From Actinomarinicola tropica (lineage in GTDB: Bacteria; Actinomycetota; Acidimicrobiia; Acidimicrobiales; SKKL01), in the NCBI RefSeq assembly GCF_009650215.1, contig NZ_CP045851.1, forward strand, positions 2,817,001 to 2,881,000: a stretch of 64,000 bases of DNA, read 5' to 3'. Numbering within the stretch: position 1 is the stretch's first letter; every line of letters begins with the position of its first letter. Positions 28,711-42,190 of the stretch are shown here, piece after piece. Below the pieces are notes generated by a model. The model saw only the letters and a program-made list of their open reading frames with translations, searched no databases and was not told where the DNA came from. The translations under genes and the position numbers were made by a program.

Positions 28711-31079
28711 GTGCGGACCTCCTCGTCCGCGGGGTCGAGCGCAGCGCCCGTCCGCTCCTCCTCCACGCCGACGTCCTCCTGGCGTCGCGGCGGGCGGCCC
28801 GCCCGCACCAGCGCCGCGGTGCCGATCGCGGCCACGGTGATGACCACGATCTCGCCCAGGGTGTCGAAGGCCCTGATGTCGGCGAGGATGACGTTCACGG
28901 CGTTGGCGCCGCCGCCCTCCGGGTAGGCGACCTCGCTCATCTCCTCGCCGATCGGCCGGTCGGTGCGTGCCGCGAGCGAGGTCAGCGCCAACCCGAACAC
29001 CGCGGCGCCCACGGCGAGCGACAGGCCGAGGTGGGCGACGCGGAGGGACCGGGTCCGACGGCGCGCGAAGCGGTCCGGCAGGCGGCGCAGCACCATCAGG
29101 AACAGCACGAGCGACACGGTCTCGATGAGGAACTGCGTCAGCGCGAGGTCGGGCGCACCCTGGACGACGAACAGCAGCGCCACGCCGTAGCCGACGGTGC
29201 CGAGGGCGAGCACCGCGGCGAACCGCCGCCGGGTGAGGACGGTGCCGATGGCGCCGACGAGGACCAGTACGGCGATGACCGCCTGCAGCGGTGATTCGGC
29301 CCAGACCCACCCGTCGGGCACCTCGAGGTGGCGGACGAGCACGACGCCGGGGACGACCGCGAAGGTGATGAGGACCATCGAGACGTAGAAGCTCAAGGAG
29401 CCGGGCTGGACGATCCTCGTGACCTGGGCCGCGCCCCTGATGAGTGCGGCGTAGCCGGCGTGGAACGCGACGTCGGCACCGCCGCCGACCGCCAGGCCCG
29501 ACTGGAGGTGCGCCACCGGGCGCCGGGCCAGGAAGAGCAGCACGCCACCGGCCAGCGCCACACCCGACAGCAGCAGCGGGAGCGTGAAGCCGGGCCACAG
29601 GTGCAGGTGGTACTCCCCCGCCGGCTCGTAGAGCGCGGCCGCCGCCGGGCGGACGAGCTCGTCGGCCAGGGCGGTGACGAGCCCGCCGACGAGCGACAGT
29701 GCGGCGAGGAGCGCGGCAGGCACCACGAAGGCCGCCGGCGGCCGGGGCACCTCGGCGCCGATCGGGTCCTCGACCTGGGGCTTCGCAGCGAACGCACCCC
29801 AGAGGAAGCGCGCGGTGTAGGCGGTGGTGAGCACGGATCCGGCGACGAGCCCGGCGAGCACCCAGTTGGAGCCGGTGCCGCTGGCGTCGAGGTACCCCAG
29901 GAAGCCCGCCTCCTTGCTGACGAACCCGAGGAGCGGCGGCACCCCGGCCATCGACAGGGCCGCGAGCGTCGCCACCGCGGCGGTGAGCGGCAGCCGGCGA
30001 CCGAGCCCGCTCAGGCGGCGCAGGTCGCGGCTGTGCGCCTGGTGGTCGACGACGCCGACGACCATGAACAGCGCGGCCTTGAACAGGGCGTGGGCGAGGA
30101 GCATCGCCGTCCCGGCGAACACGAGCTTCGAGTCGCCCCAGCCGAGGAGCGCGACGAGGAAGCCGAGCTGGCTGATCGTGCCGAAGGCGAGGACGAGCTT
30201 CAGGTCGTACTGCCGCAGCGCCCGGTAGGCGCCCCAGAGCATCGTCGCCACGCCGACGCCGGCGGTGAGCGGCCGCCACAGCCCGACGTCGGCGAACGCC
30301 GGCGACATGCGGGCGATCAGGTAGACGCCGGCCTTCACCATGGTCGCCGAGTGCAGGTAGGCGCTCACGGGGGTCGGCGCCGCCATGGCCCCGGGCAGCC
30401 ACATGTGGAACGGCACCTGGGCCGACTTGGTGAACGCGCCCGCGAGGACCAGGACCACGGCCCAGGCGACGACCGCACCCTCGGTCGGCGGGTCGGCGAG
30501 GATCTCCGACAGCGACCACGTGGCCGAGCTCGACGCCTGGCCGAGCAGCACGAGCCCGCCGAGCATCGCCAGCCCGCCCGCCCCGGTGATGAGGATCGCC
30601 TGGAGGGCGGCCTTGCGCGAGCTCTCCTTCGTGTCGTCGAAGCCGATGAGCAGGTAGCTCGTGACCGAGGTCAGCTCCCAGAACACGAAGATCAGCAGCA
30701 GGTTGTCGGCGAGGACGAGCCCGAGCATGGCGCCGGAGAAGGCGCACAGGTACATGGCGAAGCGGCCGAGGTCCGGCCGGTCGGGGAAGTACTCGACCGA
30801 GTACGCCATGACGAGGGCGCCGATCCCGGAGACCAGCAGGACCATGAGGGCCCCGAAGGTGTCGAGCCGGAAGGCGAGCTCGAGCTGGAGGCCCGGCACC
30901 CACTCGTGGGCCTCCTCGATCGCCCCGCCGTCGAGCACGGTGCCGAGGTGACCCGCGAGCCACACGAGGGTCGCCGCCGGGGCGAGGAGCGTCCACAGGA
31001 ACACCCGCCGACCGAGGGGACGTGCCGCGGCCGGAGCGAGGAGCGCGACCACCGCGTGGACGACGACGAGAAGCGTCAC
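28707..31079 (-). CDS. mrpA: Mrp antiporter subunit A
   Basis: A 790-residue giant membrane subunit homologous to NuoL plus a C-terminal MbhD-like part. Motifs include FVFWELTSVTSYLLIGFDDTKESSRKAALQAI with the membrane Glu, FTKSAQVPFHMWLPGAMAAPTPVSAYLHSATMVKAGVYLI, and GVPPLLGFVSKEAGFLG. The complex exports Na+ or K+ in exchange for protons for pH and salt balance. GTG at 31079 has no Shine-Dalgarno and lies 32 nt from the nearest -10. Instead it overlaps the stop of a nine-codon mini-ORF, so initiation is probably coupled to that leader peptide. Confidence 0.92.
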   Translation of the reverse strand: MTLLVVVHAVVALLAPAAARPLGRRVFLWTLLAPAATLVWLAGHLGTVLDGGAIEEAHEWVPGLQLELAFRLDTFGALMVLLVSGIGALVMAYSVEYFPDRPDLGRFAMYLCAFSGAMLGLVLADNLLLIFVFWELTSVTSYLLIGFDDTKESSRKAALQAILITGAGGLAMLGGLVLLGQASSSATWSLSEILADPPTEGAVVAWAVVLVLAGAFTKSAQVPFHMWLPGAMAAPTPVSAYLHSATMVKAGVYLIARMSPAFADVGLWRPLTAGVGVATMLWGAYRALRQYDLKLVLAFGTISQLGFLVALLGWGDSKLVFAGTAMLLAHALFKAALFMVVGVVDHQAHSRDLRRLSGLGRRLPLTAAVATLAALSMAGVPPLLGFVSKEAGFLGYLDASGTGSNWVLAGLVAGSVLTTAYTARFLWGAFAAKPQVEDPIGAEVPRPPAAFVVPAALLAALSLVGGLVTALADELVRPAAAALYEPAGEYHLHLWPGFTLPLLLSGVALAGGVLLFLARRPVAHLQSGLAVGGGADVAFHAGYAALIRGAAQVTRIVQPGSLSFYVSMVLITFAVVPGVVLVRHLEVPDGWVWAESPLQAVIAVLVLVGAIGTVLTRRRFAAVLALGTVGYGVALLFVVQGAPDLALTQFLIETVSLVLFLMVLRRLPDRFARRRTRSLRVAHLGLSLAVGAAVFGLALTSLAARTDRPIGEEMSEVAYPEGGGANAVNVILADIRAFDTLGEIVVITVAAIGTAALVRAGRPPRRQEDVGVEEERTGAALDPADEEVRT

Positions 31080-31105
31080 GTCGTCGGTGCGGGGGCCGGC
31101 GGCAT
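31076..31105 (-). CDS. Leader mini-ORF of mrpA (MPPAPAPTT)
   Basis: Nine codons, ATG CCG CCG GCC CCC GCA CCG ACG ACG, then TGA. The TGA overlaps the GTG of mrpA (GTGA). The ATG lies 6 nt after TACCCT (31117-31112), so the mini-ORF would be translated from a leaderless mRNA. Four of nine codons are proline, with an early PP pair. It could load ribosomes onto mrpA or act as a stalling sensor. There is no direct proof of translation. Confidence 0.5.
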   Translation of the reverse strand: MPPAPAPTT

Positions 31106-31111
31106 GTCGAC

Positions 31112-31117
31112 AGGGTA
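31112..31117 (-). promoter_or_regulatory. -10 element of the mrp operon
   Basis: TACCCT on the minus strand, 26 bp beyond the stop of the upstream ABC-F gene and 6 nt before the leader mini-ORF. It is the only good hexamer in the gap before mrpA. Confidence 0.5.
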
Positions 31118-39859: not shown

Positions 39860-39887
39860 GAGCCGCCACGGCGTACCGTCGGCGCCG

Positions 39888-39899
39888 GTGACGCCATGA
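39888..39899 (+). CDS. Possible three-codon leader ORF of the AI-2E permease gene
   Basis: GTG ACG CCA TGA starts 8 nt after TACCGT (39874-39879) and its TGA overlaps the permease ATG (ATGA). The permease itself has no Shine-Dalgarno sequence and is 16 nt from that -10. Very short, so chance cannot be excluded. Confidence 0.3.
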   Translation: MTP

Positions 39900-41141: not shown

Positions 41142-41948
41142 TCACACCGCGGTGCAGACCAGGAGCGACAGGGCGGTGCGCCCCTCGGCCAGGTTGCGCA
41201 GGTACATCGGCCCCTTCGTCTCGATGTCGTCGATGAACGTCGCCGTCGTGAGCCCGTTGGTCGGCGGTTCGGACAGCATCGCCCGCATGGCGGGGAGGAG
41301 CTCGTCAGCCGGGTCCTCCTCGACGTCCACGCGGAAGCCGGCCCCGGTGACGAGGCGGCGCTGCTCGTCGCGCGTCACGAGGTGGCTCTGGTGCGGCTCC
41401 GTGGCCCACGGCACGGGGAGGAGCAGCTCGCCGCCTCCCCCGTCGATCACGTCGAACGTCGCGAATCGGCCGCCCGGTCGCAGCACCCGGCGGATCTCGG
41501 CGTAGAAGCCGGCGCGGTCGGCGATGTTCATGGCCACGTGCTGGGTCCACGCGTGGTCGACCGAGGCGTCGGACAGGTCGAGCGCGGTGACGTCGCCGAC
41601 CCGCAGGTCGACGAGCTCGTCCAGCCCGGTCCGCCGGTTCAGGAGCCGGCCGACCTCGACGAACATCGGCGTCAGGTCGACACCGACGATCCGGCAGCCG
41701 AACCTGTCGGCGAGGTGGCGCGCCGGGCCGCCGAGGCCGCACCCCGCGTCGAGCACCACGTCCGACGCCGTCGGGGACAGCAGCGCGGCCATCCGCTCGG
41801 TGGCGACCGCCCCCGCGGTGTGGAAGTGGTCGAAGCCCGCGAGCTCGTCGAGCGTGAGCTGCCGCCCGTCGGGAGCGATGTCGTCGAGCGCCGCGGTGAC
41901 CAGCTCGAGGGCGTTCGAGCGCCGATAGTGGTCGGCGACGGAGGTCAT
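41142..41948 (-). CDS. SAM-dependent methyltransferase (class I)
   Basis: A 268-residue Rossmann-type methyltransferase. Motif I is VVLDAGCGLGGPARHLADRFG, followed by IVGVDLTPMFVEVGRLLNRR, DVTALDLSDASVDHAWTQHVAMNI and VLRPGGRFATFDVI. It resembles small-molecule methyltransferases related to UbiE and sarcosine/dimethylglycine enzymes; the substrate is unknown. ATG at 41948 has no Shine-Dalgarno. Instead it overlaps the stop of a 12-codon ORF that has a strong ribosome site. Confidence 0.87.
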   Translation of the reverse strand: MTSVADHYRRSNALELVTAALDDIAPDGRQLTLDELAGFDHFHTAGAVATERMAALLSPTASDVVLDAGCGLGGPARHLADRFGCRIVGVDLTPMFVEVGRLLNRRTGLDELVDLRVGDVTALDLSDASVDHAWTQHVAMNIADRAGFYAEIRRVLRPGGRFATFDVIDGGGGELLLPVPWATEPHQSHLVTRDEQRRLVTGAGFRVDVEEDPADELLPAMRAMLSEPPTNGLTTATFIDDIETKGPMYLRNLAEGRTALSLLVCTAV

Positions 41949-41983
41949 GTCCGACCGCCGGGAGAACGGTGGTGAGCTCTCAT
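41945..41983 (-). CDS. Leader mini-ORF of the methyltransferase gene (MRAHHRSPGGRT)
   Basis: Twelve codons with a strong AAGGAGG (41994-41988) four bases before ATG. The TGA overlaps the methyltransferase ATG (ATGA), so ribosomes ending here can restart on the methyltransferase. A TAGCGT hexamer (42026-42021) upstream could be the promoter. The peptide has three arginines and two adjacent histidines. Real translation is unproven. Confidence 0.5.
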   Translation of the reverse strand: MRAHHRSPGGRT

Positions 41984-42020
41984 GGAGCCTCCTTACGCAC
42001 CTCGTCCACCTGCGCCGGAC

Positions 42021-42026
42021 ACGCTA
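42021..42026 (-). promoter_or_regulatory. -10-like element of the methyltransferase transcript
   Basis: TAGCGT on the minus strand, about 38 nt before the leader ORF. It faces away from the parC promoter, with the repeat block between them. Confidence 0.4.
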
Positions 42027-42030
42027 CGCC

Positions 42031-42190
42031 CCATGCGTGTCGCCGCGCCCCCATGGGGAGCCGCAGCACGCCAGGAGGTGCTGCGCCTCCCCGTGGGGCG
42101 CCCTTGGGGCGCCGGGACACGCCCGGGGGTGGTGTGGCTCCCCAAGGGCACGGGAGCAGCGTGTGGGGATGCCCGGCGAACGGGCGTTCG
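42031..42190. repeat. GC-rich repeat and hairpin block in the 301-bp gap before parC
   Basis: Two 44-bp direct copies (about 42050-42093 and 42101-42144), 51 bp apart and roughly 77% identical, begin CCCATGGGG and CCCTTGGGG. A third, weaker unit starts CCCAAGGG at 42141. CGCAGCAC (42062-42069) and GTGCTGCG (42078-42085) form a perfect stem that extends imperfectly outward into a hairpin of over 50 nt. I see no convincing gene in it. It separates the divergent methyltransferase and parC promoters. Confidence 0.65.

Follow-up and report, generated by a model that had tools for sequence, protein, structure and literature searches.

How a ribosome finds a gene whose start codon carries no recognisable loading signal is a question raised by a methyltransferase gene of Actinomarinicola tropica, which lies on the minus strand at positions 41142–41948 of the window, that is, the whole stretch of 64,000 nucleotides analysed here (GC 72.8%), taken from a source genome of one contig of 3.715 Mb (G000). 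The gene encodes a SAM-dependent class I methyltransferase of 268 aa (Pfam Methyltransf_11, 2.8e-22); as to its specificity, none of the NCBIfam models shown scored above its cutoff. Its start codon, the ATG at 41948-41946, is supported as the right one by three orthologs (L009, L017 and L018; 70-71% identity), which align with it from residue 1. TANNNT at -15 to -12 is the mark of leaderless genes, and such a box is absent before this ATG, which hence does not qualify as leaderless; nor does a Shine-Dalgarno (SD) sequence stand directly before it. The ATG is overlapped by the TGA of a mini-ORF of 12 codons (41945-41983, minus strand; MRAHHRSPGGRT followed by TGA; codons ATG AGA GCT CAC CAC CGT TCT CCC GGC GGT CGG ACA TGA), and the overlap takes the ATGA form (-4 nt). 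The mini-ORF itself is led by the SD AAGGAGG (41988-41994, minus strand), which ends 4 nt (CTCC) before its ATG. Both the absence of a ribosome site at the gene and this arrangement from 41994 to 41945 had been described by a sequence-only reading of the window, and both were confirmed. A possible -10 box, TAGCGT (42021-42026, minus strand), picked out by consensus only, lies 43 nt before the mini-ORF ATG and could possibly give the mini-ORF transcript a 5' UTR of about 30 nt; no good -35 element was seen to pair with it. With the box at that distance and an SD present, the mini-ORF start codon is not predicted to lie at the 5' end of its transcript.

Coupling is the best reading of this sequence, and we consider it reasonably likely that the methyltransferase is translated by termination-reinitiation via the SD-led mini-ORF. 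Stop and start overlap, as is typical of this process, in which the two overlap or lie within a few nucleotides. Ribosomes would load at AAGGAGG and read through 12 codons that do not matter as such; having stopped at the TGA within ATGA, they would reinitiate on the overlapping methyltransferase ATG. A gene that has no SD and starts away from the 5' end would need such a carrier, and the mini-ORF would bring the ribosome to RTGA; we infer both the translation of the mini-ORF and the dependence of the methyltransferase on it. Of 1198 sampled starts, as many as 807 showed neither an SD nor a leaderless signal, and the lack of an SD is therefore by itself no proof of dependence on a mini-ORF.

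The same reading had counted three arrangements of this kind in 64 kb, adding those at mrpA and at an AI-2E transporter gene. The overlap of a small-ORF TGA with the next start as RTGA does occur in all three; loading by an SD is confined to the methyltransferase. The AI-2E mini-ORF of 3 codons (GTG ACG CCA TGA; 39888-39899, plus strand) overlaps the transporter ATG at 39896 as ATGA, and its GTG at 39888 lies 8 nt after a -10 box, TACCGT (39874-39879, plus strand), that is conserved in a genome of the same genus (G001). The mini-ORF before mrpA has 9 codons (MPPAPAPTT and TGA; 31076-31105, minus strand), begins with an ATG at 31105, 6 nt after the -10 box TACCCT (31112-31117, minus strand), and overlaps the mrpA GTG at 31079 as GTGA. 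Neither of these two has an SD before it, and the spacing from the -10 box is consistent with leaderless mini-ORFs whose start codon lies at the 5' end. On leaderless mRNAs, ribosomes load at a 5'-terminal RTG (PMC4633059); at AI-2E and mrpA, the ribosome would load in this manner at the start codon on the mRNA 5' end, and the handover would be the same. In G001, the AI-2E mini-ORF reads GTG ATC ACA TGA, with length and overlap kept and different codons, while the mrpA mini-ORF (ATG GCG CCG GTC TCG CTT CCG ACC CCA TGA, MAPVSLPTP) keeps its place, length and overlap. The three cases are thus two different things, which have the RTGA overlap in common but not the loading signal.

The frequency of such mini-ORFs was determined in 1.264 Mb of the source genome and 0.844 Mb of G001, with genes called by codon usage; more than 30 in-frame upstream leaderless starts in this sample indicate that some gene starts were called too far downstream. 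Positional profiles revealed two types of start, one with SD motifs peaking at -16 to -9 and the other with TANNNT at -15 to -12. A match to the usual 3' end of 16S rRNA (GGCTGGATCACCTCCTTTCT, with as many as 2 mismatches allowed) was obtained in the source genome only at a non-rRNA site, so the SD peak was taken as grounds for assuming the anti-SD; this genome may have a divergent or masked 16S gene, or lack one. Among the 807 starts lacking a signal of their own and at least 20 nt from the upstream gene, leaderless-led upstream RTGs numbered 18 in the RTGA-compatible frame, 10 of them ending in RTGA, versus 3 in the other frame. When TANNNT was placed at wrong spacings, the RTGA count fell from 10 to 0, 2 and 1. 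These 10 sites, two of them nested starts of a single gene, represent 9 genes versus 0.85 in dinucleotide shuffles (4 versus 0.45 in the source genome, 5 versus 0.40 in G001), and 5 genes are still left against 0.85 when the two genes of the window and their G001 orthologs are set aside. Leaderless RTGA mini-ORFs are therefore above chance but rare, at about 1% of genes. A relaxed -10 box ([CG]ANNNT) gave no excess over wrong spacing, and the counts are accordingly based on strict TANNNT; TRATG (-1) overlaps were not enriched in the sampled DNA either. SD-led mini-ORFs before genes without their own signal were found 3 times versus 1.7 in shuffles (source genome) and once versus 1.2 (G001), their frames were balanced in the 807-start sample, and the 4 SD-led RTGA mini-ORFs seen compare with 2.9-3.8 expected, the upper figure being a second estimate, based on the fraction of genes in which A follows the start codon. 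In the sampled DNA, SD-led RTGA mini-ORFs are no commoner than expected by chance. Treating SD-led and leaderless-led mini-ORFs as one class was rejected, as enrichment is limited to the latter. A general habit of recruiting ribosomes through mini-ORFs, which had been proposed from the three cases, thus survives for the leaderless form; in its SD form, it is refuted by the comparison with shuffled upstream sequences, the test that the reading itself had named.

The leaderless form can also be followed across relatives. The scan of G001 turned up a gene for a sugar-nucleotide epimerase, which was traced across the order in 30 genomes; in 15 of them the TANNNT box stands directly before the gene, and in 10, bearing seven family codes, it stands before a leaderless mini-ORF. 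These mini-ORFs vary in length (8, 8, 16, 17, 12, 8, 14, 11, 20 and 10 codons), yet all 10 end in RTGA on the gene start, and none among the 30 genomes enters the gene in the wrong frame. The tree of the epimerase calls for 7 changes between the direct-leaderless and mini-ORF states, with many of its branches weak. The fourth base is A in 10 of 10 genes with mini-ORFs versus 4 of 15 direct ones, an association that is suggestive but comes down to 3 independent pairs on well-supported branches and is not significant by that test. At mrpA, AI-2E and the epimerase, the linkage is kept though the peptide is not, and the predicted leaderless mini-ORFs are, judged by this comparison of sequences, a real class conserved across the order and the Acidimicrobiia. 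A nucleotidyltransferase gene, whose upstream regions (L212-L215) were compared by eye, has a leaderless mini-ORF ending in RTGA of 8 codons in the source genome and of 16 codons in G001; in G002 and G003, a leaderless ATG lies in frame and gives an N-terminal extension. This gene would be a case of an evolutionary switch between N-terminal extension and mini-ORF.

With the SD-led class not enriched, the mini-ORF may have come to lie beside the methyltransferase by chance. By this explanation, the ribosome finds the methyltransferase ATG directly, needing neither an SD nor coupling, and the mini-ORF, whether or not it is translated, is a bystander or a mild inhibitor. The chance level of SD-led RTGA mini-ORFs in the sample, the many genes of the genome without SD and leaderless signals, and the lack of conservation of this mini-ORF, described below, all speak for it. 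Against it stands the quality of the match. In 20,000 dinucleotide shuffles of the 100 nt that precede this gene, coupling by a mini-ORF arose in 2.4% with a 5-mer SD, in 0.3% with a 6-mer, and in 0.025% with AAGGAGG, so that a 7/7 SD on an ATG whose frame ends exactly at ATGA corresponds to 1 in 4000, by a criterion chosen post hoc. In 1.264 Mb of the source genome, AAGGAGG-N4..8-ATG occurs 13 times and, the present case apart, mostly marks real starts: 9 times it stands at the start of a called gene or an alternative to that start, twice internally in frame, once antisense, and once in intergenic DNA, and this only intergenic occurrence is the mini-ORF of the methyltransferase, which is also the sole AAGGAGG-led coupled case in the sampled DNA. 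We regard a chance neighbour as rather unlikely.

Coupling of the methyltransferase, favoured here by its sequence, is not borne out by conservation. No mini-ORF is found at the orthologs of 70-71% identity. These come from Acidimicrobiia bacterium EGI L10123 and UBA9382, and two of them (L017 and L018) have GATGAT-CCCGCGC-ATG at the gene (7 nt), a leaderless-type start, with ATGG in place of ATGA. In G001, the methyltransferase is absent between the AI-2E gene and gyrA, and the mini-ORF would be lineage-specific as far as the compared genomes show. The slot in G001 (L114, C7) holds an ORF on the opposite strand, NUDIX-like by its sequence pattern, which points to gene replacement. Between the methyltransferase and gyrA, positions 42050-42148 of the window form an imperfect palindrome with 48-nt arms. 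Another 16 sites of the genome, on either strand, match it in part at 71-84% identity, which makes it a dispersed element of REP- or MITE-like kind.

If there were a frameshift, whether genuine or due to an assembly indel, the SD-led ATG would be the true methyltransferase start, with a 12-residue N-terminal extension split off from the gene and no mini-ORF in the normal allele. Such switches do happen, as the nucleotidyltransferase has an in-frame leaderless extension in G002 and G003 versus mini-ORFs in G000 and G001; however, the internal ATG is where the orthologs of the methyltransferase begin, with a leaderless-type box immediately upstream and no extension, and there is no long homopolymer at the junction of mini-ORF and gene, which makes this explanation improbable. 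A regulatory leader peptide, acting as an attenuator or by stalling, is what the position of a short, SD-led ORF immediately upstream of a gene of biosynthetic type might suggest, and the label 'leader peptide' had been given to it, but this is the least credible explanation and the label is overstated, since MRAHHRSPGGRT has no regulatory codon run and shows no sign of function, folding at the 5' end is ordinary (z -1.2), the search of the leader found no supported terminator and no Rfam family that would indicate an attenuator or riboswitch, and the element is not conserved.

Arrangements of this kind are already known. Shell et al. (2015; PMC4633059) described 'coupled' small ORFs on leaderless mycobacterial transcripts, which are overrepresented (p < 0.0003) and in which the coupling is conserved and the peptide is not. 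The mini-ORFs at AI-2E, mrpA, the epimerase and the nucleotidyltransferase are alike in being short ORFs whose TGA forms RTGA with the next start and whose linkage is kept; they differ in belonging to the Acidimicrobiia, another actinobacterial class, and in being predicted from -10 spacing rather than from mapped 5' ends. By this analogy, the leaderless mini-ORFs of the Acidimicrobiia would be the equivalent of the mycobacterial ones and extend them, while that of the methyltransferase differs in being SD-led, not leaderless. The methyltransferase pair resembles overlapping genes with termination-reinitiation (PMC6728339; PMC12548453) in its -4 nt ATGA overlap and in that the downstream gene itself lacks a strong signal, although the upstream partner here is a 12-codon ORF without evident product, not a gene. 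A review of 2025 mentions that short ORFs have been proposed to deliver ribosomes, and that this may be widespread (PMC12548453). In bicistronic designs, such as that for C. glutamicum (PMC10367133), a short translated fore-cistron, SD-led or leaderless, likewise drives the next gene, and that paper reports an SD motif to be needed for full strength along with fore-cistron translation; such systems are engineered, and the SD of the second start is weak or absent in the present genes. On leaderless starts in Acidimicrobiia, the literature searched yielded one paper, which by its title and abstract deals with SD variation, and the comparative evidence in this class appears to be new within that literature.

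Because ORFs of 3-20 codons are skipped by gene callers, a class of genes seemingly devoid of a translation start signal is left unexplained. Through comparison across an order, and not through ribosome profiling of one species, the handover (5'-end start, frame and RTGA) is seen to be kept while length and peptide vary, which supports a role in ribosome delivery that has been proposed but little tested; concrete genes are now at hand for testing reinitiation. As for its origin, the methyltransferase, leaderless-type in its nearest relatives, would have arrived between the AI-2E gene and gyrA, either as an addition or as a replacement; its new promoter, SD and start codon would stand at some distance from it, a gap that the overlap bridges. 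More broadly, and tentatively, since we hold this to be somewhat short of an even chance, genes of the Acidimicrobiia may switch repeatedly in evolution between a directly leaderless start and access by way of a leaderless mini-ORF, the length of which would be free so long as the 5'-end start, the open frame and RTGA are kept, and the methyltransferase would show that loading by an SD can take the place of leaderless loading. If this is true, mini-ORFs would serve generally to mend the link between a promoter and a gene start that have moved away from each other.
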